Virus record (IMG/VR): IMGVR_UViG_3300010885_071562
Location: 1-55,522 of that record
DNA length: 55,522 nt
Source of the DNA: a virus
Direction: 5' to 3' (one strand)
Translations under genes and position numbers: made by a program
Shown: positions 1-48,660 of the stretch, one piece after another
Numbering within the stretch: position 1 is the first letter of the stretch
How the letters are laid out: each line of letters begins with the position of its first letter
Notes under the pieces: model-generated
What the model saw: the letters and a program-made list of their open reading frames with translations, nothing else
What the model was told of the DNA's origin: nothing
Databases searched by the model: none

Positions 1-479
1 GCCTCATCGATGATCAGAAGTGAGAGTGCTTCAGATCGTCCTGCGTCTTCGGAGGTGGGAACAGCCTTGATGATGGACCCGTTCGAGAACTCTATCGCCT
101 GCTTTGAGCTATTCGTTATCTTCGGAATGATGAGCCAATCAGGAAGGTTCTCAATCATCGTCCTCACCTTACGAACAAAGTTCTGGGCAACCGCCATCTT
201 GGTGGCGATGATGAGGATGTTCTTTTCCTTGTAGAAGATCGCTCTCCATACTGCAAATGCCGCAGTAATGGTCGAGAGTCCAAGCTGCCTGCTCTTCAGA
301 ACAATGTTGAACCTGTGGTCAACAAAGTCCTTGACGCATTCATCCTGGAAAGGATATGTCCTGAATGGGACAAGTCCCCTCTCGGGGTGAGCAATCTTCA
401 GGTAAGTGTTGATGAAGTGTACGGGATCCTTTCCACAGCGGATGATCTCACGTAGCTGTGCATCCTTGGAGACTGGCAT
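1..479 (-). CDS. Terminase large subunit, T4 gp17-like (5' part; 3' end beyond window)
   Basis: ATP-driven DNA packaging motor and nuclease. I read this gene directly from the bases. An ATG at 477-479 opens a frame of about 159 codons that runs off the left edge, so only the N-terminal part of the ATPase is visible. It contains a gp17-style substrate-entry segment (LVPFRTYPFQ, about residues 36-45), a deviant Walker A (SRQLGLST, about 62-69) and a Walker B (LLIIDEA) at the edge of the window. The nuclease domain would lie beyond the edge. The start follows the TGA of the upstream gene by three bases. It is the last visible gene of the minus-strand run. T4 gp17 is about 610 aa, so roughly a quarter is seen. 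Family assignment is firm. Confidence 0.9.
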   Translation of the reverse strand, partial: MPVSKDAQLREIIRCGKDPVHFINTYLKIAHPERGLVPFRTYPFQDECVKDFVDHRFNIVLKSRQLGLSTITAAFAVWRAIFYKEKNILIIATKMAVAQNFVRKVRTMIENLPDWLIIPKITNSSKQAIEFSNGSIIKAVPTSEDAGRSEALSLLIIDE

Positions 480-482
480 CCA

Positions 483-848
483 TCACCCGACTTCAAGGTC
501 AACAAACCTTCTGTAGTATCCTGCCTTCCTTGGGCTGCTTGCTGTCGATACAATGATCTCGAAGGAATCGTTGGTGGACAACTCCTTCAGCTTCACAGAC
601 TCATTGGCAAGTTCCTTGAAGCGAACTCCCACCTTCTTGACGGCATCCTTCAGGATTGAGAGCGACCTGTCAGACTCACGAATCAGCTGTGGCCTCATTC
701 CTTCTGGTCCTGTGTAGTGGACGACAGAAGTGTATGTCAGGCGGAGCCTGTTTCCTGTGAAGTTCGAAGTGATGGAAGTCGTGCCATCGGTCGATCCCCT
801 CAGCTCCTCTAGGGCCTGTCCCATGGCATTTACCTGCTTGAAGTTCAT
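483..848 (-). CDS. Unknown 121-aa protein directly upstream of terminase
   Basis: Function not recognised. I chose the ATG at 848 over an in-frame upstream start at 959. The 848 start has a textbook ribosome site (GAGGAG, about 7 bases before it), whereas the longer form would overlap the previous gene by 64 bases. The protein begins MNFKQVNAMGQALEELRG and ends KAGYYRRFVDLEVG. It has a mixed charged and polar composition, a helical middle (about 60-95), and no signal peptide or membrane segment. Its place before the large terminase would suit a small terminase subunit, but I see no DNA-binding helix-turn-helix or coiled-coil pattern proving that. A packaging or neck role is only inferred. Confidence 0.7.
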   Translation of the reverse strand: MNFKQVNAMGQALEELRGSTDGTTSITSNFTGNRLRLTYTSVVHYTGPEGMRPQLIRESDRSLSILKDAVKKVGVRFKELANESVKLKELSTNDSFEIIVSTASSPRKAGYYRRFVDLEVG

Positions 849-895
849 TAGACTCTCCTCAACAATAAGTATCCTTCTCGAAGAGTCGGTGTAAT

Positions 896-1111
896 CTACG
901 ACTTCTTTAGCTTCGGTCTCCACCCAGAAATCCACTTTTCTCTGTTTGGATCTGCCCAAGACTCTTCACATGGCTTACAACAGTCACTTCTCTTGAATGA
1001 GAGTTCATCAATAAGCCCTGACATGACGCAATCACAAACAGGACAATAGAAGGGAACCTCAGACTTCTTGAGATCCCCGACTATTGCAACTTCCCTTCGA
1101 ATGCTATTCAT
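896..1111 (-). CDS. Small zinc-ribbon protein (71 aa)
   Basis: A short protein with two cysteine pairs likely to bind one zinc: CPVC at residues 23-26 (plus C28) and CC at 44-45 with C48. A tryptophan-rich tail follows (W52, W60, W64). The ATG overlaps the end of the Mre11-Rad50 gene by 8 bases, and the GAGG ribosome site lies inside that gene's last codons, so translation is probably coupled. The role is unknown. Small zinc ribbons of this kind are common in large T4-like phages and may bind nucleic acid or proteins. A 47-base gap separates it from the next gene. Confidence 0.8.
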   Translation of the reverse strand: MNSIRREVAIVGDLKKSEVPFYCPVCDCVMSGLIDELSFKRSDCCKPCEESWADPNREKWISGWRPKLKKS

Positions 1112-4100
1112 ACCTCACTTTAGCATCCTGTCCTGTTCTCGTAATCTCGATAACGTCATCGACTGATTCCTTGACGGCATCCACATGCGATATCACAAGG
1201 ATTGTCTTGAACCACTTCTTGAGAGAAGAGAGAAGTCGATTGCATGACTCGACTGATGTCTCATCAAGGGCACCGAAACCTTCATCGATAATGAGCATGT
1301 CAGTCTTTGGAAGGGACGAGATGTTGATGAGTGCGACCCGAAGGGCAAGGGATCCAAGCATCTTTTCCATTCCGGAACCAAGCTCTATCGGTCGACGAGA
1401 GTCACCGTAGTCAAGAAAGACCTCGAGATCAGTCGATCCTTCTTCAGACTCGAGTACAACCGTGAATCCAGCAACTCCCTGTAGGATGCTGGACATTTCT
1501 GAATTGATCCTGGGCAGCTCGGATGAGATGATGTTGAGAGGGATTCCGTCCTTGCCATATGCGGCGAGGAGTTTCTCGTAGACCCTCCACTTCTTCCTGT
1601 TCTCCTCGAACTTCAGCTTCTCATTTTCGAGGTCAGCTACCCTGTTTGTGTTCATGCCAATCGACCTGTTGTCATCCTTGAGACGAACATCCCAGGACTT
1701 TATCTGAGCATTGAGGGTACTGATCTTGTCCTTGAGCTCACTCATTGCGTTGGCTTCATCACCATCCACGACTCGAAGCTTCATGGACTCAAGCTCATTC
1801 CTGAGAGTTGCGAGCTTCTTTACTGCGGACGAATGCTTTGTGCTCAGGAGCTCGACCTGAGATTCGAGTGTCGACACATTTCCCTTGTACTCAATCTCCT
1901 TCTTGAGGATGTCTTCGTACCTCTTGACCTTGGACTCGATCGAAGACTCAGCATACTTCCTGAGTGCATTTCTGGAGTTTTTGAGTTCCTCTTGAAGCCT
2001 CTCTATCGATTGCTGCTGTTCAGCGATCTTCGCCTTGTCCTTGTGAGAGTCCTTGATGAACTTACACGTTGGGTATGCATCGCCGCATGGGACCTCGTTC
2101 AACTTTGAGGCTGACCTCTCACGAGCCTTCAGAAGCTCCTTCTCCCTTTCGATGTTACTCTCGATCAGGGCTACGCTCTTGTCGAGTCCTCGCATCTCGA
2201 CCAACTGGTTGCGAAGATCCTCAATTGGAAAGTTGTTCTTCAGATCATCGATCTTGACAAGCTTTGCCTTGAGATCTTCGATGTTGTTTCGAGTCTCATT
2301 GAGCTTGTCATCGTAGGACGAGATCAGTTCCTCTGTGGAGGCAATCTCCTTTTCCTTTTCGACTACATCGTGAGATGTGACCTGATCTCGATCCTTGTGC
2401 GTGAGGAGTTCGACATTCAGGCTCTCGACTTCCTTTCGATGAGACTCAATCTTGGTCCTCAGCTCCTCAGCCTCATGCTCCATCCTGATAAGTTCAGTCT
2501 TTGCAATAGCGATGAGTCCGTCGTAGTCCTTGTTCGGTGAAAGCTTCATGAAGCTCTTGAGGTGATTGGACTCCTCCTTCAGACTTACGAGGACCTTGTC
2601 AAAGACATTGAGGTCAAGGAAGTTTCCGAGGTAGATCTTCCTTGCTGTGGCCTTCTCCTTGATGAAAGTGTTCATCTCACCTTGGGAAGCGAAGGATGTC
2701 AGAAGGAAATCCTCGGCTGAACCCACGAGTGATTGCAGCAGCTTATCAGAGTCTCTCCGTTGTTCTCCGCTAAAGTCGATATGGTTTCCATCCTTATCGA
2801 CTCCAAAGATGTTCAGATGTGTTCCTGCTGATACTTGTCCACGCTTGTTCGTGTGCTTGGTCGTCTGGCGCTCGATGACATAATCGTTGCCATCGATGTT
2901 CACTTCACACTTGACTCGACAGTATCCCTTTCGGGTATTGACGATGTTGATGTTCTTGATGTTGCCACGGTCAGACCCATTGAAAAGCCCGTACATCAGA
3001 GTGCCAGGGATCGAGGACTTTCCAGTCCTGTTCTGTCCAAACAGTCCCACAACTCCGTTGAGGTTTGAGAAGTTGATGAGGTTCTCCTTGCCATAGGCGA
3101 AGGTGTTGTCCCAGTCCATCGACTTCATAGACCACTTCACATTGCGAGGTGAGTCATCCGACTCAATTCCCTTGAGGTGCTTGTCAACGAGGTCCTCCAT
3201 CACCTTGAGATCTTCCTCATCAAACTTCTCCTTGTCAAGGAACTTCCTCACAAGCTTCTTGTGAACTTCCGGATCTCGAAGGTTCTCTCTCTCAATCTTT
3301 TCATCAGCAAGGCCGAGCTTCTCGGCATCCCTATTGTTCTCCCACTTCCAGACTATCTCACTTGCCGACAGCTCTTCCTTCAGGGCTGCCGCCATTGACT
3401 TGATCTCTTCCTGCAGGAGGTGAGTGTCAACAGCAATCCTGAAACGGGCACCGTTCATGCCAACGCATTCTGAAAGGGTGTCGATGACACTGCCCTTCCA
3501 ACGAATCGTCACGTAGGGTGAATCATTCTTGAGCTCATGGAATGTGACATCAAAGTCATTCTCAGATCGAATCTTCCAGAGGAGAAATCCCTTGTCCTGA
3601 GACTCACCATAGTTCTGCTGGATGGTTGAACCTGGATATGCGAATCGATTCTCCCTGTCCAGGAACTGTCGACGGTGAATGTCACCGAACATTCCGAACT
3701 GGAATCCGCTGAACAGGTTCATGTCGTTGTCGGACTCGCACTCATAGTCAACGTCTGTGAGTGCTCCACGAAGAGACCCGTGGTAAAGGGCAATGTTCAC
3801 CCTCCCAGGATGTGGTACGACATTGTCCCATCGCTCCTCATCGAAGCATGAGAAGTTTCCCCATGAGATCGGGACGCTGAATCGATCATCATCGAATGTC
3901 CCTGAATCCTTGTAAAGTGTGATTCTGGGATTCCTGAGAGCGTCAACTATTGGTGATATTGCATCCTGGCGATCCTTGTTGTTGATCAATCCATCGTGGT
4001 TTCCGAGGACCATGACAACAGGAGCAATCTTCGCCATTGACTCGAACCACCACGTGAGGCAGTCGATAAGCTCAGGTGAGATTCCTTGAGTCTTGGAATG

Positions 4101-4307
4101 GACGATATCACCGCCAATCAGAATACAATCGACTTCTTCCTTCTTGACCTTCTCAAGGAACTTGGTGAACACCTTTCGGTACTCATCGTGGCGGCTCAGC
4201 CCACGCCAGTGGACGTCTGCAATGTGAGCAATCTTTACCTGATTCAAAGGATTGACCCCGAAGAAATTGTTGAGATTAGGAAGTGAAGACGATTGTTGAG
4301 TGACCAC
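1104..4307 (-). CDS. Fused Mre11-Rad50 (SbcD-SbcC, gp47-gp46) recombination nuclease/ATPase
   Basis: A single 1067-aa chain that joins both subunits of the double-strand-break processing complex. The N-terminal half has the Mre11 metallophosphoesterase motifs: D31/H33 in HIADVHW, GGDIVH (65-70), LGNHD (101-105), YHGS (175-178), GDIH (208-211) and AYPGSTIQQNYGE. The Rad50 half starts near 390, with Walker A GQNRTGKSS (424-432), coiled coils from about 575 to 900, cysteines C741 and C748 at the hook apex, a signature segment GSGMEK (977-982), Walker B LIIDEG (1005-1010) and an H-loop histidine near 1041. Start: GTG at 4307, preceded by GAGAGA; no ATG lies near the conserved N terminus. It overlaps the primase gene by 64 bases. 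In T4 these are two genes (47 and 46). Function in recombination-dependent replication and end resection follows from the family. Confidence 0.93.
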   Translation of the reverse strand: MVTQQSSSLPNLNNFFGVNPLNQVKIAHIADVHWRGLSRHDEYRKVFTKFLEKVKKEEVDCILIGGDIVHSKTQGISPELIDCLTWWFESMAKIAPVVMVLGNHDGLINNKDRQDAISPIVDALRNPRITLYKDSGTFDDDRFSVPISWGNFSCFDEERWDNVVPHPGRVNIALYHGSLRGALTDVDYECESDNDMNLFSGFQFGMFGDIHRRQFLDRENRFAYPGSTIQQNYGESQDKGFLLWKIRSENDFDVTFHELKNDSPYVTIRWKGSVIDTLSECVGMNGARFRIAVDTHLLQEEIKSMAAALKEELSASEIVWKWENNRDAEKLGLADEKIERENLRDPEVHKKLVRKFLDKEKFDEEDLKVMEDLVDKHLKGIESDDSPRNVKWSMKSMDWDNTFAYGKENLINFSNLNGVVGLFGQNRTGKSSIPGTLMYGLFNGSDRGNIKNINIVNTRKGYCRVKCEVNIDGNDYVIERQTTKHTNKRGQVSAGTHLNIFGVDKDGNHIDFSGEQRRDSDKLLQSLVGSAEDFLLTSFASQGEMNTFIKEKATARKIYLGNFLDLNVFDKVLVSLKEESNHLKSFMKLSPNKDYDGLIAIAKTELIRMEHEAEELRTKIESHRKEVESLNVELLTHKDRDQVTSHDVVEKEKEIASTEELISSYDDKLNETRNNIEDLKAKLVKIDDLKNNFPIEDLRNQLVEMRGLDKSVALIESNIEREKELLKARERSASKLNEVPCGDAYPTCKFIKDSHKDKAKIAEQQQSIERLQEELKNSRNALRKYAESSIESKVKRYEDILKKEIEYKGNVSTLESQVELLSTKHSSAVKKLATLRNELESMKLRVVDGDEANAMSELKDKISTLNAQIKSWDVRLKDDNRSIGMNTNRVADLENEKLKFEENRKKWRVYEKLLAAYGKDGIPLNIISSELPRINSEMSSILQGVAGFTVVLESEEGSTDLEVFLDYGDSRRPIELGSGMEKMLGSLALRVALINISSLPKTDMLIIDEGFGALDETSVESCNRLLSSLKKWFKTILVISHVDAVKESVDDVIEITRTGQDAKVRYE

Positions 4308-5203
4308 TCTCTCGCTTCTTTCCTTGCGACCTTGATGAAGTCCCTGTCCATTTCACCGACGTCCTTGAAGTCGCCGGTATCAAGTATCCTCACAGGAACG
4401 TCATGTTCATAGAGTAGCTTAGCAATCTTGTGTTGCTTGGATTCTGCATCATCATCGAGTGCAAGAATGACAGGAGTCCTGTTGAGAGTAATCCGAGCAA
4501 AGAGGGCATGGTTCTTTGTGAGAGTTGATCCGAGAAGACAGGTCGTGTTCCCGTCAGCCCTAATCACGTCGAATGGCCCCTCGCATATCATCAGCTCTTC
4601 TTTCCAATCAATGTCAAGTTCATTGAAGACGATCTCACGCCTGTCAGGTCTTGGATTGAGATACCTTGGTTGAGTGTCCTTCTCAATAGTCCGCGATGTC
4701 CAGAAGTTGATCTTTCCGTCACAGTCGAAGGATGGAATGATGACTCTCCTTCGATTCTTACCGGACACACATGTGCCAAGGCGGAACCTCCACATGTCAG
4801 ACTTTGTGACTCCTCTTCGATCGAGATAGGATATCACGGCAGTGACGTCTGGATCTGAGCCCCAGTATTCGGCCAACATGAGGAATCCATCAGGAACCTT
4901 GACCTCTTCCTTCTTCGGAAGAGGGTCATCGATGAATGACTTTTCCTCGACAGCCTCAAACCTCTGTCGCCACTCAGGCAATGAAGAAGCTGCAAACTTC
5001 TTCAGGAGTGAGACTACACTTCCGCCCTTCACACCACAAACCCAACAGTGCCATCGACCGTCGTCAATCTTGATGGTAAGCTTCATCTTGTCATCATTGC
5101 AGGTTGGGCAATGGAAGCTTACGTTGACGCCGTCGTTCCCGACAGCACACTTGCCGAGGGACTTTCGAAGGAATGCTATCCGTTCATTTAGATCTATGAG
5201 CAC
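4244..5203 (-). CDS. DnaG-type primase with CHC2 zinc finger and Toprim domain
   Basis: Synthesises RNA primers for DNA replication. The 319-aa protein has an N-terminal zinc finger with C32/C35 and C53/C56 (CPTC and CWVC). A Toprim core follows: the glutamate in CEGPFD (E208) and the aspartates in ALDDDA (250-252) are the expected metal ligands, and YLNPRP (181-186) resembles the segment before the core in DnaG proteins. No helicase domain is attached, so a separate helicase is expected elsewhere in the genome. The start is GTG at 5203, 14 bases after the resolvase stop, with no strong ribosome site. The C-terminal end overlaps the fused Mre11-Rad50 gene. It is shorter than bacterial DnaG (about 580 aa), similar to phage primases such as T4 gp61 (342 aa). 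Confidence 0.9.
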   Translation of the reverse strand: MLIDLNERIAFLRKSLGKCAVGNDGVNVSFHCPTCNDDKMKLTIKIDDGRWHCWVCGVKGGSVVSLLKKFAASSLPEWRQRFEAVEEKSFIDDPLPKKEEVKVPDGFLMLAEYWGSDPDVTAVISYLDRRGVTKSDMWRFRLGTCVSGKNRRRVIIPSFDCDGKINFWTSRTIEKDTQPRYLNPRPDRREIVFNELDIDWKEELMICEGPFDVIRADGNTTCLLGSTLTKNHALFARITLNRTPVILALDDDAESKQHKIAKLLYEHDVPVRILDTGDFKDVGEMDRDFIKVARKEAREWSLNNRLHFLISTISSGSIL

Positions 5204-5217
5204 GATTCATTCTAACA

Positions 5218-5754
5218 TCAAGTCTCGACATGGATAAGCAAGCCAGCCTTTGCCATGACATATGCGTCAGCAGCATCATCAGTTCCGTGGTCGAGGACGA
5301 CCTCACCCTTTCTCTTGCCGGTCTTGATGACCCGTGTCGGAAAGTTATAGTCGGGCTCCTGGACTCTCAGCCATGCGATGACGGCCTGCTTCGGGTCTTG
5401 GCCCTTGTCTATCTTCACACCGACCTTTGATCGAGCAGTCCTCACTGGAATGATTGTGGGCTTCACTCCAAAGACCTCATATGCCTTGTTTGAGATGATG
5501 CCATTGAACCTCGCAAGTGTGATGAGAGTGTTAGCAGAGGAGGCACCAGCCCTGAATCCCAACATGTTCTGCTCTACAAAGATGTGTGTGGGCTTCACAT
5601 CAAGGCACTTCAACACTGCAGAGACAGCATCACACTTCTCATACAGGTCAGGAAGGTGTGAGAGCCCAACGGCTCCCATGCTCACGAGCTTTCCATTCGT
5701 ATCAATGATCGACCATCCGGTGCTGGATGTCGATATGTCTAGTCCCAGAATCAT
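5218..5754 (-). CDS. RuvC-like Holliday junction resolvase
   Basis: An RNase H-fold endonuclease predicted to cut Holliday junctions and branched DNA before packaging. With ATG at 5754 the protein is 178 aa. A TTG two codons upstream is possible but less likely. The acidic catalytic set is visible: D6 in GLDISTSSTGW, E61 in FVEQ, and D159/D160/D163 in HGTDDAADAY near the C terminus. T4 uses an unrelated enzyme (endonuclease VII, gp49), so this is a replacement of the usual T4 solution, as seen in other large phages. It sits between the last tail gene and the primase, heading a replication/repair group. Confidence 0.9.
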   Translation of the reverse strand: MILGLDISTSSTGWSIIDTNGKLVSMGAVGLSHLPDLYEKCDAVSAVLKCLDVKPTHIFVEQNMLGFRAGASSANTLITLARFNGIISNKAYEVFGVKPTIIPVRTARSKVGVKIDKGQDPKQAVIAWLRVQEPDYNFPTRVIKTGKRKGEVVLDHGTDDAADAYVMAKAGLLIHVET

Positions 5755-5779
5755 GTTCAATGGTAATAGGATCTCAAGA

Positions 5780-8089
5780 TCAGAAATCGAACTTTACCCT
5801 GAACATTACACGGTCTCTGTCTCTCTTCTGGACTGGCTGGGCAAGAGTCGCCTTTGCAACAACATTGAGGTACTCATCATGGAAGTTCACTGTGTCAACC
5901 ATCACGAATGAGTCGGACTTGTCATTTGCATAGTCTGAAGCTGTGAGTGGCATCCAGCTTGGATTTGAACTTGAGTTGGCCGTCCAAGCAGGTATGATAG
6001 CCTGCATCTCCAATACGTTGACGGGTTGCTCACCCTTCATCTCAACTTGAAACTGACTCTTGCCGAAGAAGTCGCCAAGTGAAGGATTGGTGACGCATGC
6101 AACTCCCTCATCATACAGAACTATTCCGCACACTGACCATATGGGATGTGGACCATCACAGTCCGCCCTGTAAAGAGTGCCGTATCCGTTGTCCTTCAGT
6201 GTGATTGACTGCCCTGAGCCTGTCATCACGCTGTCCTTGAGCATGTAGGACCCAGGGTGGATCCTCACTCCGTAGAACAGGTTCGATGCGTCATAGAACG
6301 AAACAAGGTTGGATGACGGGTCCATCGTCCTCTGCAGGATTGTGAGGTTCGATGTGGGCGATCCTGACATGTTCTCAGGTGATGAGCCTGCAATCTGGTC
6401 GAAGAAGCTTCCGCTCTGCTGCGTGAGTCCCCTGAATATCGATCCTGTCGATATCACGTTATTCAGATTGACGAACGAGAGATCCTCGACTCCCATATCA
6501 TTCTTGAACAGAGCTGAGAGGAATGAGGATCCTGTTGACACATTGCTGAAGTTGGGAACAAACTTTCCGTTGTCATTCGGAAGTATGAGGTAGTTCCTGC
6601 CAACAATTGAACCTGTTCTCATCATGACATCGTTAGCTGTGATGACAGGAATCTGATTGGTTGTGATGTCGCTTGATGTGAGGAACATGAGCCTTGGGTA
6701 GCTTCCTCTCACCAACTCTCTCAGGTGATTCTCAACGTTGATCTCATGGCCTCCAACTCCAAAGCTCATGGTGACGTTGAACGGTGTGTCAGTCTTTGAA
6801 AGCTTGTAGGAGAAGGGGGTCTCAAGAACCTTCCTCGTTCTAGACTCTCTCGTAAAGTGAGGAGGAAGGTAGAAGGCCAGAGAATCGGATCCAGAGTAAT
6901 AGAAAGACTTTGATCCTGATGATATCGCGGCTGTGCTCAGGAACTTCTTCCAGATCCTCAGTTCATGAACTTCTGCCCTGAGTGGGTGCCTCATCTTCCA
7001 TGAAGTCGGATCGTAGTCATCGGATATGCTCAGGTCATTCTGTACGCCTTCATACAGCACAGCGTTCGTATTGAAGAAGTGACTTACACCGCCACCTGGT
7101 GAGTTCACACCTTCAAAGAAGTTTCCAATGAAGAGTGCATTCGGGTCATCAAGTGGTGAGAAGCTTGTCTGAGATATGCTGGAGGATGGGACAATGAAAG
7201 TTCCGGCGCTCACTCCGTCTATCGAAAATGTTCCTGTTCCGAAGTTCGTAGTCTGGCTTCCCCAACGAATTGCAATATGGTGCCAGTTGTTGTAACGAAG
7301 CAGAGGAGATGACTCGAAGATCATGTCCTGTGGGAATGGACGCTGGTTGTTCGTGAGTCCAAGAGTGACCTGGCTCGGCGGAACCTCAGCAGATTGTGAG
7401 AGCTGCAGGAGTATCTTGAATTCTGTTGGTCGCCCGAGTGAGTCTGCCCTTGAACCTGAGACGAGGGACACTGCAAATGATGAACTCACATGCATGATGG
7501 TACCAGCATTGTAACTTGTTCCATCACCAAGGCCTGTCGGCTTCACATAGAACTCTATCGTGAAGGGACCTGATGGCGTATAGACTCCGTAGCCGTCTGA
7601 TCCTGCAGGGTTTGAGTAGATGAGTGAGGCTGAGGTTGGCAGTCCACTTGAACTAAAGAAGTTCAGGCAAGAATAGTTCGTGTAGCCCCAGTTGATCTTC
7701 GGACTTCCTGTCCTGTAGTACGGAATGAGTCTGTCCTTGAAGATGAGTTTTCTCTGTGTGTCACTATTGAGTGAGACAGGAGGCTCAAACCTCAGAATCT
7801 CCATCGACTTCAACTGTCGAGGAGTCACTCCAATGGAATTCACTGATTCCAGGTAGTCTTCCATCAGCTCAAGTGAGCCGCTTGACTTCTTCGCATCCTC
7901 AAGGATAGAGTCTGCTGTCCTGTCTCCAAAGCTTTCCGTGAATGCAGGAGACTTCTCAGTTGTCGAAACACGTGGGTAGACTCGGACAGAGCCTGTCACT
8001 CCAGACGAAGATGAAGTGAAAGTCCTGACCGGTCTTGCGACAACGGTGAAATTCTCGAAGTAGTCCGATGTGGCCCTGATGAGGGACAT
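5780..8089 (-). CDS. Large tail/baseplate-peripheral protein with LamG-like domain
   Basis: A 769-aa structural protein, probably on the outside of the tail or baseplate. Residues about 170-400 look like a LamG/concanavalin-A-like lectin domain: GPFTIEFYVKP, then YNNWHHIAIRWG, a small bridging strand with FSIDG, and a closing strand EVHELRIWKKF. The C-terminal region (about 560-769) resembles the C-terminal part of the next-upstream protein (8099-9361): both have a GI.xYDxGVA/IA-type strand, an SNP(S/T) segment and a terminal RVKFDF / RVRLDF. It starts 9 bases after the upstream stop, behind a GGGGGA ribosome site. The composition is Ser/Gly/Thr-rich with no signal peptide or membrane segment. 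Exact position in the virion is unknown. Confidence 0.85.
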   Translation of the reverse strand: MSLIRATSDYFENFTVVARPVRTFTSSSSGVTGSVRVYPRVSTTEKSPAFTESFGDRTADSILEDAKKSSGSLELMEDYLESVNSIGVTPRQLKSMEILRFEPPVSLNSDTQRKLIFKDRLIPYYRTGSPKINWGYTNYSCLNFFSSSGLPTSASLIYSNPAGSDGYGVYTPSGPFTIEFYVKPTGLGDGTSYNAGTIMHVSSSFAVSLVSGSRADSLGRPTEFKILLQLSQSAEVPPSQVTLGLTNNQRPFPQDMIFESSPLLRYNNWHHIAIRWGSQTTNFGTGTFSIDGVSAGTFIVPSSSISQTSFSPLDDPNALFIGNFFEGVNSPGGGVSHFFNTNAVLYEGVQNDLSISDDYDPTSWKMRHPLRAEVHELRIWKKFLSTAAISSGSKSFYYSGSDSLAFYLPPHFTRESRTRKVLETPFSYKLSKTDTPFNVTMSFGVGGHEINVENHLRELVRGSYPRLMFLTSSDITTNQIPVITANDVMMRTGSIVGRNYLILPNDNGKFVPNFSNVSTGSSFLSALFKNDMGVEDLSFVNLNNVISTGSIFRGLTQQSGSFFDQIAGSSPENMSGSPTSNLTILQRTMDPSSNLVSFYDASNLFYGVRIHPGSYMLKDSVMTGSGQSITLKDNGYGTLYRADCDGPHPIWSVCGIVLYDEGVACVTNPSLGDFFGKSQFQVEMKGEQPVNVLEMQAIIPAWTANSSSNPSWMPLTASDYANDKSDSFVMVDTVNFHDEYLNVVAKATLAQPVQKRDRDRVMFRVKFDF

Positions 8090-34766: not shown

Positions 34767-35920
34767 ACAAAGTCCTTCAACGCTAGACTGTACTTATCGT
34801 TAATGCTCTCAGTGGAATACTCGCTCCTGATCTTCTTTCCAAGTTCCTTCGCCCATTCACGTGGAACCGACTTGCTTGAAGCAAACTTCTTCATCTTCTT
34901 CTTGGCATCTTCCTCACGAGGATGCGACCACGACATCCCATTCAGGAATATCTGGCCATCAACCTTCTGTGGGTGAACTTGCTGGAGGTCGTAGTCGACC
35001 TTAACGTACTTGCCCAAAGAGAGGAACTCATTGTGAGCTGACCATCCGGTCACAATCACAGGTAGGTCATTTGCGGCAGCTTCAAGTATCGGAAGACCGA
35101 AACCTTCTCCCCTTGTGAGTGAGATCAGTGTGTCAACCTTCGGTGACCTGTAGAGCCTGCCAAGCTCGCTTGGAGTCATCTCACCTGTGAGGATGTGAAC
35201 CTTCGGGAATTGTCCTGGCCTCACCTCAGAGATTAGCTTCTTGAAGATGTCAACTGTCTGAGAGCGCAAGAAGCATGACTGAGTTCCGAGATTTGTCTTG
35301 ATGATCAGGCTTACGTTTCTATCATCCTTGAAAGTCTCACAGAACCACTTCACAGTGAAGAAGATGTTCTTTCTGTCGAGGTCAGGAGTGTTTCCTGTTA
35401 CCTGACCAACAAGCAGGAAGTTTGTCTGTGTCGTTACCTCTGGAAGATCAAGGCCTGGTTCGTCACTCACCATGAGGGGATTGAATGACTCAGGAACAAC
35501 GAGGCACGGGACCTGTAGGTTCCCCGAGTTTGTGAGAGCCTTCTTTGCAAATTCTGACGGGACTATGACACAGCTCATCCTGTTACAACATTCAACCCAA
35601 GCAGGATTGCACCTGTCAGTCTCAACAACAGCTGAGATTCCTACGTTCACCTTTCCAAGGGCAGGATTCCATTCATTTGGAAGCTGGATCTGCAGCGTGA
35701 GGTCTGCTTCGAATTCCTGAGAGTTTGACCTCTGCATGATCTCACCTATGAGGCCTCCCTCATTGTCCGGATTGACATGCCAGCTTGTCATACCCCACGG
35801 TGTGATCTCACACCTGACATCAAAGTTAGGATTCGATATCGCCCACTTGAATACTTGCCTCGAGTGCTCACCATATCCTGATATTGAGAGGAGGGGTCCT
35901 CTAACGATTACTTTCTTCAT
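34763..35920 (-). CDS. Glycosyltransferase, GT4-like (GT-B fold)
   Basis: A nucleotide-sugar glycosyltransferase. The C-terminal Rossmann half carries the family-4 signature TRGEGFGLPILEAAANDLP and VIVTGWSAHNEF, with the two glutamates expected for donor binding; FLLVGQVTGN starts this half. The N-terminal half (IVRGPLLSISGYGEH) has a Gly-rich acceptor loop. I place the start at ATG 35920, which overlaps the previous stop by 4 bases and begins MKKVIVRG; an upstream ATG at 35956 would add 12 residues inside the previous gene. It forms a pair with the next-upstream GT4. Donor and acceptor cannot be told from sequence. At 385 aa it is of usual length. Confidence 0.9.
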   Translation of the reverse strand: MKKVIVRGPLLSISGYGEHSRQVFKWAISNPNFDVRCEITPWGMTSWHVNPDNEGGLIGEIMQRSNSQEFEADLTLQIQLPNEWNPALGKVNVGISAVVETDRCNPAWVECCNRMSCVIVPSEFAKKALTNSGNLQVPCLVVPESFNPLMVSDEPGLDLPEVTTQTNFLLVGQVTGNTPDLDRKNIFFTVKWFCETFKDDRNVSLIIKTNLGTQSCFLRSQTVDIFKKLISEVRPGQFPKVHILTGEMTPSELGRLYRSPKVDTLISLTRGEGFGLPILEAAANDLPVIVTGWSAHNEFLSLGKYVKVDYDLQQVHPQKVDGQIFLNGMSWSHPREEDAKKKMKKFASSKSVPREWAKELGKKIRSEYSTESINDKYSLALKDFV

Positions 35921-37158
35921 AGGCTTGTCACACTCCAGCGATTCTTCTTGCGCCAATTCTTGATAGTCTCATTGAGTGTTCTGTCCCAGTCGTCTATCAT
36001 CTTCTGGTGATTGAATTCTGACATGACGTAGTTCCTTGCTCGGAGACCTACCTTCTTCCTCTCTTCAGGTCCCATCTCATAGAGCTTGAAGATTCCGTTT
36101 CCTGCAGTCTCAGCGCTTACATAGTCTTCAAAGATGTACGGGACCATCTGGCTTCCAACCATCGTCTTGAGCTCAACCGGCAGAGCAACGCCGTTCTCAT
36201 TGCCATTCCTGTGGTCGACCACTTGACGAGTCAGGCCTCCTGTCTTCACGGCGACGATTGGCTTTGCACATTGCATTGCCTCAAGTGTCGAGAGTCCGAA
36301 ACCTTCAGCATGAGAGATATTGATGCAAAAGTCGGAAATGTTGTGAAGGATGTTCATCTTCTCAAAGTCAATCCGATCATTTGAGAAGATGACGTTCTCA
36401 TCAACACCAAGCATCTTCACAACCTCTACGAGGTTTGGACCTTCCTGATCGAGTGGATCGGTGTGCATGAGGAGGGTCGCCTTCTTGTGACCATGCTTCT
36501 CCTGCAGCTTGTCAAGGAATATCTTCCATGACCAGATGACATCGGATGGCCTCTTTCGCCTTGCATTCCTGTTCACCCAGAATCCTACAAAGTGATCTGC
36601 CCTTGCAGGTCCAAGAAGCTGCCTCTTATGCATTGAAGCCTGCTGCTCACTAAGAGGATAGAATACCTGCGGTGGAAGGGTGTGTGGAATGAAGTTGGTC
36701 TTTTCTGGGAACATTCCCTTGACCATCTCATATGTCATGAATGAGTGACAATTGATGAGATCAGTCGCATCATACATTGCACGGTTGAACTCTGGGGCCG
36801 GATGATTGTCCCAGACATGCCACCACACGATTGGGCACACCTGATGGATCTCATCCTCCATCTCAAAGAGCCAGATAAAGAATCTTGGATCAGTGAAAAT
36901 GAGAATGAGATCCGGCTTTTCAGTGGCCAGAGTCATCCTCAGGAGGTTCCTGTCTCCGAATCCATCTATCGGTTTGATGATGAAATCAGGATTGACCATG
37001 ATGGTCTCATAGCTGGAATGCTTCATGGCAGCTCCAAACTGCCTGAACGACCAGGTTCCCTTTTCTAGTAGTCCGTTTATGAGATGCCTTGTCTGCGTTC
37101 CGACTCCACTTGTCGAAAGCGCATGGTCACTCAGAACTAGAACTTTGTGCTTCTTCAA
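35917..37158 (-). CDS. Glycosyltransferase, GT4-like (GT-B fold)
   Basis: A retaining-type glycosyltransferase. It begins with a beta-strand and acceptor loop (KVLVLSDHALSTSGVGTQT), and the C-terminal half holds SHAEGFGLSTLEAMQCAKP and IVAVKTGGLTRQV, the usual donor-site glutamate motif. The start is TTG at 37158; no ATG or GTG lies in frame near the first strand. GGAG sits 6 bases before it but is buried, together with the first two bases of the TTG, in a 12-bp perfect hairpin (see separate entry), so translation may be controlled. Its end overlaps the next glycosyltransferase by 4 bases. Two tandem GT4 genes suggest consecutive steps on one glycan. Confidence 0.9.
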   Translation of the reverse strand: MKKHKVLVLSDHALSTSGVGTQTRHLINGLLEKGTWSFRQFGAAMKHSSYETIMVNPDFIIKPIDGFGDRNLLRMTLATEKPDLILIFTDPRFFIWLFEMEDEIHQVCPIVWWHVWDNHPAPEFNRAMYDATDLINCHSFMTYEMVKGMFPEKTNFIPHTLPPQVFYPLSEQQASMHKRQLLGPARADHFVGFWVNRNARRKRPSDVIWSWKIFLDKLQEKHGHKKATLLMHTDPLDQEGPNLVEVVKMLGVDENVIFSNDRIDFEKMNILHNISDFCINISHAEGFGLSTLEAMQCAKPIVAVKTGGLTRQVVDHRNGNENGVALPVELKTMVGSQMVPYIFEDYVSAETAGNGIFKLYEMGPEERKKVGLRARNYVMSEFNHQKMIDDWDRTLNETIKNWRKKNRWSVTSL

Positions 37159-37198
37159 AGTTTGCTCCCTGCCGTATATTCAGCTCGGAGCAAACTTT
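37157..37198 (-). promoter_or_regulatory. Perfect 12-bp hairpin sequestering SD and TTG start of the 37158 glycosyltransferase
   Basis: On the minus strand AAAGTTTGCTCC (37198-37187) and GGAGCAAACTTT (37168-37157) are exact complements with an 18-base loop between them. The right arm contains the only GGAG ribosome site and the first two bases of the TTG start codon. There is no run of T after the stem, so it does not look like a terminator. The simplest reading is a translational operator or temperature/ligand-sensitive switch; nothing here shows which. Confidence 0.72.
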
Positions 37199-37206
37199 AG
37201 TAAAAA

Positions 37207-38001
37207 CTATCGAGTACAGTGGCCACTCTTTGCGAAGTCACACCATTCACATGCATACTTGTTCTTCAGGAACTTACCGCGACGGACTCCGTTGACCATG
37301 TCCTTGACCAACTTCTCACCCTTCTCCATGGGCTTTGGTCCTACTGAGATGTCGTAGCGAACAATTGTTGACCCAGGCTTTGCACCCTTCTTCAGGACAA
37401 CGAAAGCGCATCCAACATCACGACTCTGAAGTTCGAGCTTACGAAGCAGGTAGCTCTTGTAGAGCCATAGCTGGGCAAGGACCAGTTCGTTCTCTAGCTT
37501 GTCCCTACGCCATCCACCAGCAGGACCCGTCTTCCAGTCCAGGATCCAGACCTTCCACTTTGTCTTCTCCTCATTGAGGGGAACACGAACGATGGAGTCC
37601 ACGAATCCCTTGAACTTGATGGTCTCCTCTTCAGGAATGTCCTCATAGAGGGGAAGCTCGGCGCCGAGTAGTTCCCAACCTGGATGTTCCGCCTCAAGCC
37701 AACCTGGAAAGTCGGTGAGGATGTTGACAGCCCACTTGGACCACTTCTCAACATCAGGACGATTCCTCGCTGCCCAGTCATCCTCAATGAGCTTGACAAC
37801 AGCGGGAATGTCCATCGTGCGTGTCTTGAGATAGTTCTCAACTCCGGAGTGGACATGCTTTCCGAAGTCGGCATGGATCCAGTCCTGTTCAATGACTACC
37901 TTGTCAATGTATGAGAGCTTGTGCTTGTAACCACATGCATGCCATGTGCTGACTTCTGAGAATGAGACATGCGGCTTACCAGTTGGAAAGTCAGTTGACA
38001 T
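37207..38001 (-). CDS. PD-(D/E)XK nuclease, Cas4/RecB-like with Fe-S cysteines
   Basis: A DNA exonuclease-type fold of the PDDEXK_1 group. Active-site strands are seen as FKGFVDSI (the aspartate) and WILDWKTG (D and K), with a downstream Q in LVLAQLWLYKSY. Four cysteines fit a 4Fe-4S cluster as in Cas4 and AddB: C23 in the first helix and C251, C254, C262 in CEWCDFAKSGHC at the very end. At 264 aa it is a stand-alone nuclease with no helicase attached. The ATG is preceded by AGAGGA. Within the glycan island it is the only DNA-acting gene. It may work with the Mre11-Rad50 fusion in recombination or host DNA breakdown; not shown. Confidence 0.9.
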   Translation of the reverse strand: MSTDFPTGKPHVSFSEVSTWHACGYKHKLSYIDKVVIEQDWIHADFGKHVHSGVENYLKTRTMDIPAVVKLIEDDWAARNRPDVEKWSKWAVNILTDFPGWLEAEHPGWELLGAELPLYEDIPEEETIKFKGFVDSIVRVPLNEEKTKWKVWILDWKTGPAGGWRRDKLENELVLAQLWLYKSYLLRKLELQSRDVGCAFVVLKKGAKPGSTIVRYDISVGPKPMEKGEKLVKDMVNGVRRGKFLKNKYACEWCDFAKSGHCTR

Positions 38002-38042
38002 ACTTTTCCTCTGGCTTATTCTAACAACGAAATCTCACATTT

Positions 38043-38453
38043 TCACTTGCCCTTCAATGACTCGGCAATCTTTCTCTTGAGGTCAGTGAGGCTGTGTCCG
38101 TGGTCTCGATTGCAGTAAAAGACAGGCTTCTGCAGGTCATCGCCTGTGAATCTCTTGCCGATGTAGTCAGATCCAAGAATTCGGACATCGAATTCTGTTG
38201 CACTCAGGAGCCTTCTGAGGTCTTTCTCTGTGTTGTAAGGTATTACCTTATCTACTTGTCTGAGTGACAACAGGATGTCTCTGCGATCATCCCATGACTG
38301 TACTGGTTTGCACTTATCAGGTCTATCGATGGTTGGATCGTCCTGCAGAGCGACTATCAGTAACTTACACACTGCCTTTGCATCATCAAACATTCGAACG
38401 TATCCTGGGTGGATGATGTCGAATGAACCAGCAATCAGTCCAACTTCATACAT
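38043..38453 (-). CDS. Nucleotidyltransferase, cytidylyltransferase-like (HPGY variant)
   Basis: A small Rossmann-like nucleotidyltransferase of the type that activates glycerol-3-phosphate, heptose or FAD precursors. LIAGSFDIIHPGYVRMFDDAK (about residues 6-26) is the nucleotide-binding loop; the second histidine of the usual HxGH motif is a tyrosine (H-P-G-Y). A strand and loop VALQDDPTIDRP precede ILGSDYIGKRF. At 136 aa it is complete for the family. Overlap with Gmd is 8 bases, and the ribosome site lies inside the Gmd end. The substrate cannot be read from sequence; a sugar or polyol phosphate for the glycan island is likely. The tyrosine variant is common in phage and O-antigen clusters, from memory. 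Confidence 0.83.
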   Translation of the reverse strand: MYEVGLIAGSFDIIHPGYVRMFDDAKAVCKLLIVALQDDPTIDRPDKCKPVQSWDDRRDILLSLRQVDKVIPYNTEKDLRRLLSATEFDVRILGSDYIGKRFTGDDLQKPVFYCNRDHGHSLTDLKRKIAESLKGK

Positions 38454-39423
38454 TGCGCTTGAGCCTCAGTTCATTGAGATCAGACTCATACATGAGCCTT
38501 GCTAGTCCCTTGAATGTGGTCTTTGGACTCCATTCAAGCCTCTCCTTCGCTTTCGTGTAATCGCCCTCAAGCCAAGGAACCTCATGAGGACGCTTCAACC
38601 TGTCATCTATGACCACATGCCTGTCAACATCGAGTCCTGCAATGTCAAAAACTTCGTTCAGGAACTCTCTGACTGTATGCGTCTCACCTGTGGCGATCAC
38701 ATAGTCATCAGGTTTGTCCTGTTGGAGCATCAACCACATCGCCTCGACGTAGTCCTTGGCGTATCCCCAATCACGAAGAGCTTCAAGGTTACCGAGAGCA
38801 AGCTTGTCCTGTAGACCAAGCTTGATCCTTGCGGCAGCCAGAGTGATCTTGCGAGTTACGAACGTCTCACCGCGGCGAGGACTCTCGTGGTTGAAGAGGA
38901 TACCACATGAGGCATGCATTCCGTACCCCTCACGATAGTTGCGTGTGAGACCGTGGGCAAAGACCTTGGCACAGGCGTAGGGAGATGCCGGCATGAGTCG
39001 GGTCTCCTCGTTCTGTGGATGCTCAGGATTGTCTCCATACATCTCGGATGAGGAAGCCTGATAGAATCGACAGTCGGGCTGCATTGTTCGAATGCACTCA
39101 AGGAGACGGAGGGGTCCCATTGCAACGGCGTCTACGGTCTCTTCCGGAACCTCAAATGAGACTCTGACATGAGACTGGGCTGCGAGGTTGTAGACCTCAT
39201 CGAACTTCTGAGTGGAGAAAAGTCGATAAAAGGCTCCAGCATCGTTCATTGATCCGTAGACAAGCTGGAAGTTTGGGTTTGTGAGCAGGTGGTCAATTCG
39301 ATCGGTGGCGAGGAGAGAGGTCCTCCTCTTCATTCCGACTACCTTGTATCCCTTCTCAAGAAGAAGTTCAGCAAGGTAGCTTCCATCCTGACCGGTCACA
39401 CCTGTGATTAGTGCTGTCTTCAA
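38446..39423 (-). CDS. gmd: GDP-mannose 4,6-dehydratase
   Basis: Converts GDP-D-mannose to GDP-4-keto-6-deoxy-D-mannose. The extended SDR features are all present: TALITGVTGQDGSYLAE at the N terminus, VYGSMNDAG, VYNLAAQSHV, ASSSEMYGDNPEHPQ (Ser/Glu catalytic strand) and SPYACAKVFAHG (Tyr-x3-Lys). FNHESPRRGETFVTRKI is a Gmd-specific segment. The start is unclear: the conserved protein begins at TTG 39423 (overlapping the previous stop by 4 bases, TTGA), giving about 325 aa; ATG at 39462 or 39486 would add non-conserved residues inside the upstream gene. Fcl is two genes upstream, so together they make GDP-L-fucose from host GDP-mannose. Host supply of GDP-mannose is assumed, since no ManBC is in the window. 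Confidence 0.93.
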   Translation of the reverse strand: MKTALITGVTGQDGSYLAELLLEKGYKVVGMKRRTSLLATDRIDHLLTNPNFQLVYGSMNDAGAFYRLFSTQKFDEVYNLAAQSHVRVSFEVPEETVDAVAMGPLRLLECIRTMQPDCRFYQASSSEMYGDNPEHPQNEETRLMPASPYACAKVFAHGLTRNYREGYGMHASCGILFNHESPRRGETFVTRKITLAAARIKLGLQDKLALGNLEALRDWGYAKDYVEAMWLMLQQDKPDDYVIATGETHTVREFLNEVFDIAGLDVDRHVVIDDRLKRPHEVPWLEGDYTKAKERLEWSPKTTFKGLARLMYESDLNELRLKRNV

Positions 39424-40073
39424 GACTTTCTCATTAGTAACACAGCATATTGTAGGGGACATTCTCCGGCATGTGAAACTCCCCAACCTTCGAGGCTGAA
39501 GAAGACCATGTCCTCAATGATCCTGTACCTCATGAATGAGTTCCTGTTGAAGGAAGCGCAGTGACCTCCAGCTCCATCCTCAGGATTTGAGCCACTCAAC
39601 ACATCTATCCTTTCCTCATAGGGGACTAGCAGTAGGAGTTTCTCATACTTCTCAAGGAGTCCATCAACAATGGATGTCCAATCATTGAAGTGTTCGATGA
39701 CATTTGAGATGATGCAGATGTCAGCATCGGTGTGTGGGTAATTCGTGTCCCGCAGATCGTGAACCTTGTAGTTCAGGTTCGGAAACTGCTTCAGGTAATC
39801 ATTTGCAAGTGAGATTGCATCACTTGAAAAGTCCATTCCAACGAAAGAGACCTCAGGAGGAAGCTTTGAGGCAATCAGGGCGGTAAGTTCACCTGTTCCA
39901 CAACCGTGCTCGACTATCAGTCTTGCGCTTCCTATCGCTTCAACAATCTTTGACTTTGGACGATGAATTGCATGAATCAAAAAATCTCTTGATATCGCAA
40001 GATTTTGAGCCCTGTGGTGAGCAATGTCAGGCGAATTCGTGTACTGGTGTTTCCATTCAGACTCCGCGGACAT
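39420..40073 (-). CDS. SAM-dependent methyltransferase (class I)
   Basis: The class-I motif I is IVEHGCGTGELTALIA (about residues 52-67), with a following acidic motif II (FVGMDFSSDAI) and the post-motif strand ICIISNVIEHFNDW. At 217 aa it is a normal-sized small-molecule methyltransferase. It lies between Fcl and Gmd, so a sugar hydroxyl or a nucleotide-sugar is the likely substrate; an O-methyl fucose-type product would fit but is inferred. The ATG overlaps the Fcl end by 17 bases, preceded by GAGAGG. It ends YAVLLMRKS, overlapping the Gmd start region. Confidence 0.85.
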   Translation of the reverse strand: MSAESEWKHQYTNSPDIAHHRAQNLAISRDFLIHAIHRPKSKIVEAIGSARLIVEHGCGTGELTALIASKLPPEVSFVGMDFSSDAISLANDYLKQFPNLNYKVHDLRDTNYPHTDADICIISNVIEHFNDWTSIVDGLLEKYEKLLLLVPYEERIDVLSGSNPEDGAGGHCASFNRNSFMRYRIIEDMVFFSLEGWGVSHAGECPLQYAVLLMRKS

Positions 40074-40980
40074 TCGGATACCTCTCCTTGAAACTCTTGA
40101 TCGTCTCTCTCAGGCCTACTCTAAGAGGTGTGTACTCACCCTTCCATCCGAGAGACTTCAGCTTCTCATTTGACGATGGCTTCTGGTACTGGCCATCGGG
40201 CTTGCTGCGATCAAAGTTACCACCGCCGTCGTAACCAATCTCCTCAGCAATCATGTGAGCAAGTGCCATGATCGAGATCTGCTCAGGATTTCCGATGTTG
40301 ACAGGCTCGGCACCGTCATAGTTCTCAGAAAGCCAGAGGATGATCTCTGCAGCATCACGGGCAAATGTGAACTCTCTCATAGGCTTCCCACTTCCCCAGA
40401 TGTCCACGTGATCGTACCCAAAGATCTTTGCCTCGTGGAACTTACGAATGAGGGCCGGAATGACATGGCCGCTGCTGAGGTCGTAGTTGTCATTGATGCC
40501 ATAGAGGTTGTTCGGAATGACAGTGATGAAGTTGCATCCGAACTGTTGGCGGTAAGCTTTGCTCTGTACCTCGAGCATCCTCTTTGCGTAGGCATACCCA
40601 AAGTTAGAGTGATGAGGTGGACCAGCATGAAGCTGACCTTCCGTGAGTGGGTATTGGACGTATAGCTGGTCTGGGTAGATGCAGGTTGAGAGTACGGAGA
40701 CAAGCTTCAGCTTCCTCTCCTTGCAGGCATTCAACACGTTCATGTTCATCTTAACGTTGTCATCGAAGAAGTCAGCAACGTAGTCGGTGTTGGCCTTCAC
40801 ACCCCCGACCCTTGCTGCGCAGTGAATGACTGTGTCTACTCGTCCGTCTTCCAGAGTGAGGATGGCATGATTTGACTCCGTCAGGTCACAATCCTTTGAA
40901 TTGAGACCAATGGAACCCTGCGACAGGGCAAGAATCTCACTGCCAAGGAGACCACTTGCACCTGTGATCAACTTACTCAT
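40057..40980 (-). CDS. fcl: GDP-L-fucose synthase (Fcl/WcaG)
   Basis: Epimerises and reduces GDP-4-keto-6-deoxymannose to GDP-L-fucose using NADPH. Motifs: LITGASGLLGSEI (NADP loop), VIHCAARVGGVKANTDY (typical of fucose synthase), LSTCIYPD (catalytic Ser/Cys strand), GYAYAKRMLEVQ (Tyr-x3-Lys) and NLYGINDNYDLSSGHVIPALI. At about 307 aa (MSKLITGASG start) it is close to the usual 312-321. I chose ATG 40980 because GGAG lies six bases ahead; ATG 40983 is just one codon earlier, and the much longer form at 41076 would lie deep in the upstream methyltransferase gene. Pairs with Gmd two genes downstream. Confidence 0.94.
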   Translation of the reverse strand: MSKLITGASGLLGSEILALSQGSIGLNSKDCDLTESNHAILTLEDGRVDTVIHCAARVGGVKANTDYVADFFDDNVKMNMNVLNACKERKLKLVSVLSTCIYPDQLYVQYPLTEGQLHAGPPHHSNFGYAYAKRMLEVQSKAYRQQFGCNFITVIPNNLYGINDNYDLSSGHVIPALIRKFHEAKIFGYDHVDIWGSGKPMREFTFARDAAEIILWLSENYDGAEPVNIGNPEQISIMALAHMIAEEIGYDGGGNFDRSKPDGQYQKPSSNEKLKSLGWKGEYTPLRVGLRETIKSFKERYPNVRGV

Positions 40981-41638
40981 CATTCTCTCCACAGAGGAAG
41001 AAGCCATTGCCAAGCGGGAAGTGTGACCAATTTTCCTTGATGCCAGGAACTGTGTATTCGAAGCGAATGTTCTCAAATCCTGCCTGAACCAGCCTGCTCA
41101 TCCACCAGTCCTTGTTCTCTCTAATCACATGAGTCACATCGTCTTCATAGTCAGGAATCACGTACTTTCCATTCTCACCAAGTGGCACTACGGCAAGCAA
41201 CCTACTGGAAGTCCTTCGAAGGGTCCTGAGCAATTCATCGATGACTTCGTGTGGAATGTGCTCGAGGACATCCTTGCAGACGACAACATCGAACCGCTCT
41301 CCATCAAACCACTGATCCATCCTGTTCGGATCAAGGAGTGTGAGCTTGCCTCTCACTGATTCATGGCTTTTTGAGATTGCATACTCGCTGATGTCCGCAC
41401 CTCGACAGTCATATCCGAGCTCATTCATTGCTCTCACAATGAAACCCTTGGCACAACCGAAATCAAGGACTCGATCTTCCTTGTCGATTCCTGCAAAGCT
41501 GACTATCGATGAGCACATTGCACGTGTCTGGTCAGGAAGCCACCTGTAGTTCTGGTAGCCGCTGATCTTCAGGTCGGTGCCATGCTCGTAGTAGTCCTCG
41601 TTGTAGAACTCGCTGTTGATGATGTTATGCGAATTCAT
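40973..41638 (-). CDS. SAM-dependent methyltransferase (class I)
   Basis: Methyltransferase with motif I VLDFGCAKGFIVRAM, then CRGADISEYAI and FDVVVCKDVLEHIPHEVI. With the ATG at 41638 (start MNSHNIINSEFYN) it is 221 aa. The upstream ATG at 41758 adds 40 residues lying inside the radical SAM gene that do not fit the family. The 14-base overlap with the radical SAM gene suggests coupled translation. By context (next to Fcl and a radical SAM enzyme) it may methylate a sugar or a radical-SAM product. It is diverged from the methyltransferase at 39420-40073. Confidence 0.86.
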   Translation of the reverse strand: MNSHNIINSEFYNEDYYEHGTDLKISGYQNYRWLPDQTRAMCSSIVSFAGIDKEDRVLDFGCAKGFIVRAMNELGYDCRGADISEYAISKSHESVRGKLTLLDPNRMDQWFDGERFDVVVCKDVLEHIPHEVIDELLRTLRRTSSRLLAVVPLGENGKYVIPDYEDDVTHVIRENKDWWMSRLVQAGFENIRFEYTVPGIKENWSHFPLGNGFFLCGENDE

Positions 41639-42683
41639 TGTGCTCGGTCTTCGTGAGGATGTCATCCACCAACTCATTCTGCATCGCGTACTTACAGAAC
41701 GAACAAGCATGCGTCCTTGTGGTAGGACCATTGTTGTAGAAGTCCATGATTCCATCAATGTCGCAGACCTTGAATTCGCTGTTCACCCTGTACTCATTCT
41801 CAGGGGCAAGTTCTGCTGATGGGCAGACATACACATTTCCGTCAGTGAACACACAAGGCTTCACCATGTGCATGTAGCAGTTATTGTTCCTTCTCTCACC
41901 CTTATAGTTGAAGTCCGAAAGGAACGCGTACTTTAGGGTCCTGCCTGTGTCTTCCTCAAACTTCTTCAACTGCGTTCGAATTGTCTCGATGTCCTTCACA
42001 ACTTCAGGAACAGGCTTGATTGCATTGAAAGCAATTCGAGTCGGAATCTTGTTGTCTTCAACCCAGTTGAGCATCTCGTAGAATTGTGCTTCAGTCTGCA
42101 GGTTCTTTGATAGCTTCTTTGCAGTTGTGTCTACCCAATCACCCTTGACGTTCGGATTCTCAGAGGTCTCAACATTCTGGTCCCAGACATAAGCAGCACT
42201 GATCTTGACGTCCAGCCCTTCGAGCACATCGATGTCGTAGGTGTAACCCTCAGTGAATCCGTACATTCCAAGACGAATCCACGACAGCTTAGCCCAGGTG
42301 TTGGTCTTTGACCACTTCTTGAGCATTGTTCCATTTGTGCAGACGCCGACCTTGAATCCCTTCTCTACTGCGTACGTGATGACCTTGTCAAAGTCTGGGT
42401 GGAGTGATGGTTCACCTCCTCCGGTCAGCTCCATGCCTGTGGCACCAAGTTCTGCAAATGAATCGATCGCCTTCTTCATCTGATCAAGCGTGAGCATCTG
42501 CTTCATTGCACGGTTTGCGAAGCAGCAAAAACTACATGTGAGGTTGCAAGGATTGCAAGGTGACATGTGAAACATGACAGGAGACGGTCTCTTGCCGTCC
42601 TGTATCAGCTTGAGCTTATCAAGGTGCTTTAGAAGCTTGACATGATTGCTTGTGTATGTCCGCCCCTGGGTCTTCTCTTCCAT
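41625..42683 (-). CDS. Radical SAM enzyme with C-terminal SPASM-like cysteines
   Basis: CX3CX2C for the 4Fe-4S cluster is at C46, C50, C53 (CNLTCSFC), followed by ELTGGGEPSLHP (SAM-binding GGE) and VGVCTNGT. The C-terminal part has extra cysteines: CYMHMVKPCVF, DGNVYVCPSAE, and HACSFCKYAM, resembling a SPASM/twitch region with auxiliary clusters. With the ATG at 42683 (ribosome site GGAG 5 bases before) the protein is 352 aa; a 42728 start is also open. The reaction is not known: SPASM enzymes modify peptides or sugars (C-C or C-S bond formation, dehydrogenation, epimerisation). Placed between a DUF3431 gene and a methyltransferase in a glycan island. It is not a QueE-type enzyme. Confidence 0.88.
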   Translation of the reverse strand: MEEKTQGRTYTSNHVKLLKHLDKLKLIQDGKRPSPVMFHMSPCNPCNLTCSFCCFANRAMKQMLTLDQMKKAIDSFAELGATGMELTGGGEPSLHPDFDKVITYAVEKGFKVGVCTNGTMLKKWSKTNTWAKLSWIRLGMYGFTEGYTYDIDVLEGLDVKISAAYVWDQNVETSENPNVKGDWVDTTAKKLSKNLQTEAQFYEMLNWVEDNKIPTRIAFNAIKPVPEVVKDIETIRTQLKKFEEDTGRTLKYAFLSDFNYKGERRNNNCYMHMVKPCVFTDGNVYVCPSAELAPENEYRVNSEFKVCDIDGIMDFYNNGPTTRTHACSFCKYAMQNELVDDILTKTEHNEFA

Positions 42684-42684
42684 C

Positions 42685-43350: not shown

Positions 43351-43383
43351 GTAATCTCCAGAGCCTCATTGCAAGTGTAACTC

Positions 43384-46317: not shown

Positions 46318-46318
46318 A

Positions 46319-47134: not shown

Positions 47135-47135
47135 T

Positions 47136-47852: not shown

Positions 47853-47888
47853 CTACATGAATCATTGAATCTGGCGGGACGACGTAAA

Positions 47889-48659: not shown

Positions 48660-48660
48660 C

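Follow-up and report, generated by a model that had tools for sequence, protein, structure and literature searches.

Yoshida, Claverie and Ogata described in 2011 the Mimivirus protein R555 and twelve further Mre11/Rad50 fusions, and the published examples come from Mimivirus, bacteria, plasmids, eukaryotes and a Bacillus phage, 0305phi8-36 (PMC3175470). Fusions of the R555 type retain the Mre11 helix-loop-helix, join the halves through a tether of 9-12 residues and carry aspartate in place of His206, and the short tether was calculated to be sufficient for a normal MR complex (PMC3175470). Many aquatic R555-like genes were argued from metagenomic sequences to be phage-borne, with primases on the same scaffolds (PMC3175470). 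Among later literature retrieved for these fusions, no title concerned the phage proteins, and one paper just cites Yoshida et al.

The DNA analyzed here (the window) is a whole 55.5-kb virus record with a baseplate wedge match. One of its genes places both domains in a single frame with Mre11 first and fits closely as a further example of the type described in 2011 (PMC3175470). By published description R555 shares the N-terminal Mre11, the C-terminal Rad50, the helix-loop-helix, the short tether and the aspartate in place of Pyrococcus furiosus His206, but it has 1351 residues and a longer coiled coil and belongs to an amoeba virus. The best BFVD structural matches were giant-virus homologs over the whole length, the nearest being a 1379-aa Tupanvirus protein with 22% identity, and full-length matches were also present in Tenacibaculum and Listeria phages. 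Microcystis phage Mel-JY01 harbors a full-length fusion with 28% identity (WWT39521.1, annotated as AAA domain protein only) and a primase-like gene just upstream; it differs in having a CXXC apex, compared to CX6C in the window, and in lying on a separate branch of the apparent fused clade. Escherichia coli SbcCD and Thermotoga maritima Mre11-Rad50, for which structures are solved, share the folds of both halves (Z 25-29) but are separate chains, and the SbcC coiled coil is much longer.

The fused gene and its two halves

On the minus strand of the window, the ORF list showed 1067 codons open from a GTG without an internal stop (1104..4307). The gene itself probably starts at the TTG at 4247 and encodes 1047 residues (1104..4247, minus strand). 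This start is preferred because the TTG overlaps the primase stop codon as TTGA, relatives have their N-termini at about this position, and in the stretch 5' of it the primase frame is better conserved than the fusion frame when the window is compared with a relative of 80% identity (L005). The frame from stop to stop spans 1042-1062 codons in most relatives. Thus, the open frame behind the length of 1067 residues given in an earlier note holds, while the GTG at 4307 is the less likely start. The same note had proposed that complete Mre11 and Rad50 motif sets share this frame, which the ORF, the motifs, Pfam and PHROG all confirmed.

The Mre11 phosphodiesterase and capping domain occupies aa 1-301 of the 1047-aa form (3345..4247, minus strand; AF2 and VIA-align). 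Its motifs are D31xH33 (numbered from the GTG at 4307), GGDIVH, LGNHD, YHGS and GDIH, which complete the DxH, GDxxH, GNHD, H and GxH set of Mre11/SbcD proteins with one ligand being aspartate (GDIH) instead of histidine. Pfam Metallophos matched residues 25-120 (8.5e-12), the N-terminal half belongs to PHROG 100 (SbcD-like, 2.1e-29), and VIA-align superposed aa 1 to about 303 on SbcD/Mre11 chains with Z of 24-26. The metal ligands, including the aspartate of GDIH, were invariant in the alignment of 48 relatives.

The Rad50 part (1107..3137, minus strand; VIA-align and AF2) is composed of an ATPase head split between aa 371-~560 and ~900-1047 and an antiparallel coiled coil. It harbors Walker A GQNRTGKS, signature GSGMEK, Walker B LIIDE, D-loop GALD and H-loop SHVD, all invariant over the 48 relatives, and belongs to PHROG 77 (SbcC-like, 1.4e-52); the Pfam SbcC_Walker_B match was sub-threshold. 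VIA-align matched about aa 371-1047 to Rad50/SbcC (Z up to 29.5), and on the Rad50 side the matches begin with residue 1. At the coiled-coil apex, the window protein has CX6C (PCGDAYPTC, aa 721-728), placed by AF2 in a loop between helices ending at 718 and starting at 732, in place of the CXXC zinc hook. It was counted as a variant Rad50 because its head and coil are unmistakably of that family. The AF2 model was built from 48 family rows with one relative (L002) left out of the alignment; it reached a mean pLDDT of 84.8 and a pTM of 0.49, so that the individual domains can be trusted but not their arrangement relative to one another.

The junction and the predicted enzyme

Between the halves lie a strap, the putative Mre11 helix-loop-helix and a short tether (aa 302-370; 3138..3344, minus strand; AF2 secondary structure and family profile). 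AF2 predicted a low-confidence strap at aa 303-325, helices at 326-336 and 344-359, and a tether of ~10 residues separating the second helix from the first Rad50 strand at 371. With the family profile, 171-362 aligned with E. coli SbcD 209-399, near the end of its 407 residues. In our reading, the two helices form the Mre11 helix-loop-helix that grips Rad50, an assignment based on the predicted helices and the profile match because the structure-search rows span 3-301 and 371-1047. The kept helix-loop-helix (AF2 and the SbcD C-terminal profile match) and a tether within roughly 9-12 residues are those of R555-type fusions. The region at about 300-395, formerly viewed as a helical linker, is more than that: it comprises the last part of the capping domain, the strap, the helix-loop-helix and the ~10-aa tether, and would be mostly native Mre11 since its two helices are taken as that helix-loop-helix.

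Differences between the window and L005 fell at codon positions 1/2/3 as 147/106/471 over the whole gene and as 17/8/41 across the junction (aa 301-400), a bias through the junction as expected of a coding join under purifying selection. A very improbable alternative is that Rad50 is additionally made alone, as an excess subunit, from an internal start in the fused gene. The window does have GTG/ATG codons at aa 349-350 with an AGGA-like stretch upstream; however, these codons sit within the second helix of the helix-loop-helix, and none of 111 loci showed an ATG with a Shine-Dalgarno-like 4-mer near the junction. The internal start was rejected as not conserved.

The fusion is very probably the phage's own Mre11-Rad50 (SbcD-SbcC, gp47-gp46), a predicted DNA-end-processing enzyme in one chain. 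The profiles, folds, invariant motifs, single frames, codon bias, helix-loop-helix and gene cassette, together with the published fusions (PMC3175470), argue for this reading. The predicted complex would contain two chains, joined by contacts of the Mre11 nuclease domains and by Rad50 heads that engage in an ATP-driven manner. Every helix-loop-helix would clasp a Rad50 coiled coil at its root, as it does in cellular MR complexes. ATP turnover would gate access of DNA to the two-metal nuclease, which by homology may process double-strand ends for recombination-dependent replication and repair, as gp47/gp46 do. The domains, the motifs, a fusion that is conserved and under selection, and its replication/packaging cassette are shown by these data; we infer the activity, the oligomeric state and the role of the fusion, and each helix-loop-helix may hold the Rad50 of its own chain or that of its partner. 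A stoichiometry of 1:1, as the earlier note had it, follows from the fusion itself. Its suggestion of an altered 2:2 assembly is disfavored, as the retained helix-loop-helix and a tether of about the length calculated as enough (PMC3175470) argue for the usual architecture.

It is very improbable that the protein is a diverged SMC-like ATPase-phosphoesterase that is no longer a DNA-end nuclease and serves another purpose, for instance counter-defence. The aspartate in place of histidine at one metal site, the SGMEK signature and the CX6C apex all differ from separate phage proteins, and R555 was without known function as of 2011 (PMC3175470). Nevertheless, the remaining catalytic positions are invariant among the 48 relatives, the gene sits in a RuvC/primase/TerL cassette, and Mre11 and Rad50 chains are the top structural matches. 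The one-chain Mre11-Rad50 enzyme, with its ratio fixed by the gene, would be convenient for studying the coupling of nuclease and ATPase; knowledge of the MR pathway is unchanged by the fusion.

Relatives, distinguishing marks and breakage of the gene

A single-sequence scan of IMG/VR returned 39 loci, and a profile scan confirmed at least 596 relatives; the 80 best of them were retained. Five relatives lie on GTDB contigs, all metagenome-assembled, and may be phage DNA binned with cells. All 110 loci checked, from many metagenomes and with 99 distinct proteins, had one open frame over >97% of the match; as they were picked for long matches, they rule out an artefact but leave room for split genes. 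Among the relatives of the Mel-JY01 fusion, 18 of 19 were single frames. The fusion is common to well over 100 other viral contigs and frequent in environmental viruses. The 2011 inference of fused Mre11/Rad50 in aquatic phages, drawn from short metagenomic sequences, now has well over a hundred intact genes with phage surroundings behind it.

The chance that assembly or sequencing errors joined two neighboring genes, in which case homologs would be separate, is practically negligible. Separate genes do exist in T4, S-MbCM100, BM15, Goe26 and Moorella phage MTATph1, almost touching in Goe26, but the same one-frame fusion recurs in all of the 110 loci and in the isolate-named Mel-JY01 genome, and the artefact was ruled out by these relatives. 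A search of IMG/VR with the Moorella SbcC as query found no separate-gene relatives. The view of the fusion as unusual holds against T4 and the isolates checked, yet the kind is published (PMC3175470) and environmental viruses commonly carry it.

T4 gp47/gp46 and other phage SbcD/SbcC pairs share the two domains and the catalytic motifs with the fusions but are encoded by two genes. Five separate phage SbcD proteins have GHxH where the fusion family has GDIH, and the signature is SGMEK in fusions compared to SEGEK, SGGER, STGEK or SGAEK in separate phage proteins. In the branch of the window, the apex reads CX6C (PCGDxFPxCKFI); the Mel-JY01 branch has CXXC there, as do four of five separate phage SbcC proteins that were compared. 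In an unrooted tree, fused and separate proteins fell on opposite sides of one branch (support 100/99), which points to one apparent fused clade; the division is provisional because of long branches (LR756501, Moorella). A tentative further reading, possible rather than favored, is that the environmental fusions form one old single-chain MR clade from one fusion event, with the aspartate ligand, SGMEK and, in the main branch, CX6C marking a change of chemistry at the metal site and the apex, and that this clade became fixed in a RuvC-primase-MR-TerL cassette. What is new beyond the 2011 description is modest: the CX6C hook, the one apparent fused clade and a loop of repeated gene breakage.

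That loop lies in the Mre11 domain, where the gene is broken again in at least three relatives. In L003 (LR756508, 3944-8166) and L031 (IMGVR_UViG_3300009860_000279, 1259-5420), the interruption follows GDIHxxQ, and an inserted ORF of ~300 aa, HNH-type by PHROG 1271 in L003 and without a family match in L031, abuts both gene pieces. These look like homing-endonuclease insertions leaving a fractured gene. A group I intron was rejected for both, as Rfam found no intron RNA and there is no space for one, the ORFs on either side directly adjoining or overlapping the inserted ORF. In L154 (IMGVR_UViG_3300014208_000346), a frame change at the same loop gives overlapping ORFs (3313-3978 and 3965-6547) without an inserted gene and with all known metal ligands in the N-terminal piece; this could be a sequencing error. 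Four other relatives (L118, L120, L121 and L126) carry additional in-frame residues between GDIHxxQ and YPGS, which shows a loop tolerant of insertions.

The gene cassette and the rest of the window

The fusion gene stands in a conserved, collinear order of RuvC, primase, MR fusion, two small ORFs and TerL, all on the minus strand, for which neighbors were counted over 129 loci, many of them incomplete. Directly upstream is a DNA primase of the DnaG/Toprim type (4244..5203; PHROG 47, 8e-44; upstream in the same orientation in 119/129), preceded by a RuvC-like Holliday junction resolvase (5218..5760; PHROG 159, 2.2e-16; upstream in 91/129). Downstream, a small cysteine-rich ORF of 71 aa from the ORF list (896..1111; 92/129) overlaps the end of the fusion gene; it carries CPVC...CCxxC and is a possible zinc-binding partner of the fusion. 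It is followed by a 158-aa ORF (483..959; 70/129) with no match in Pfam or PHROG, and by a terminase large subunit truncated by the record end (3..479; Terminase_6N, 3.1e-12; PHROG 5989, 7.5e-41; 107/129).

Very large ORFs of up to 1496 aa adjoin the cassette (5780-29327, minus strand), and the seven searched gave no PHROG match at 1e-4. Further along, a run of sugar genes (35917-49560, minus strand) encodes nucleotide-sugar epimerases, an aminotransferase, a radical SAM protein and glycosyltransferases, which suggests glycan decoration.
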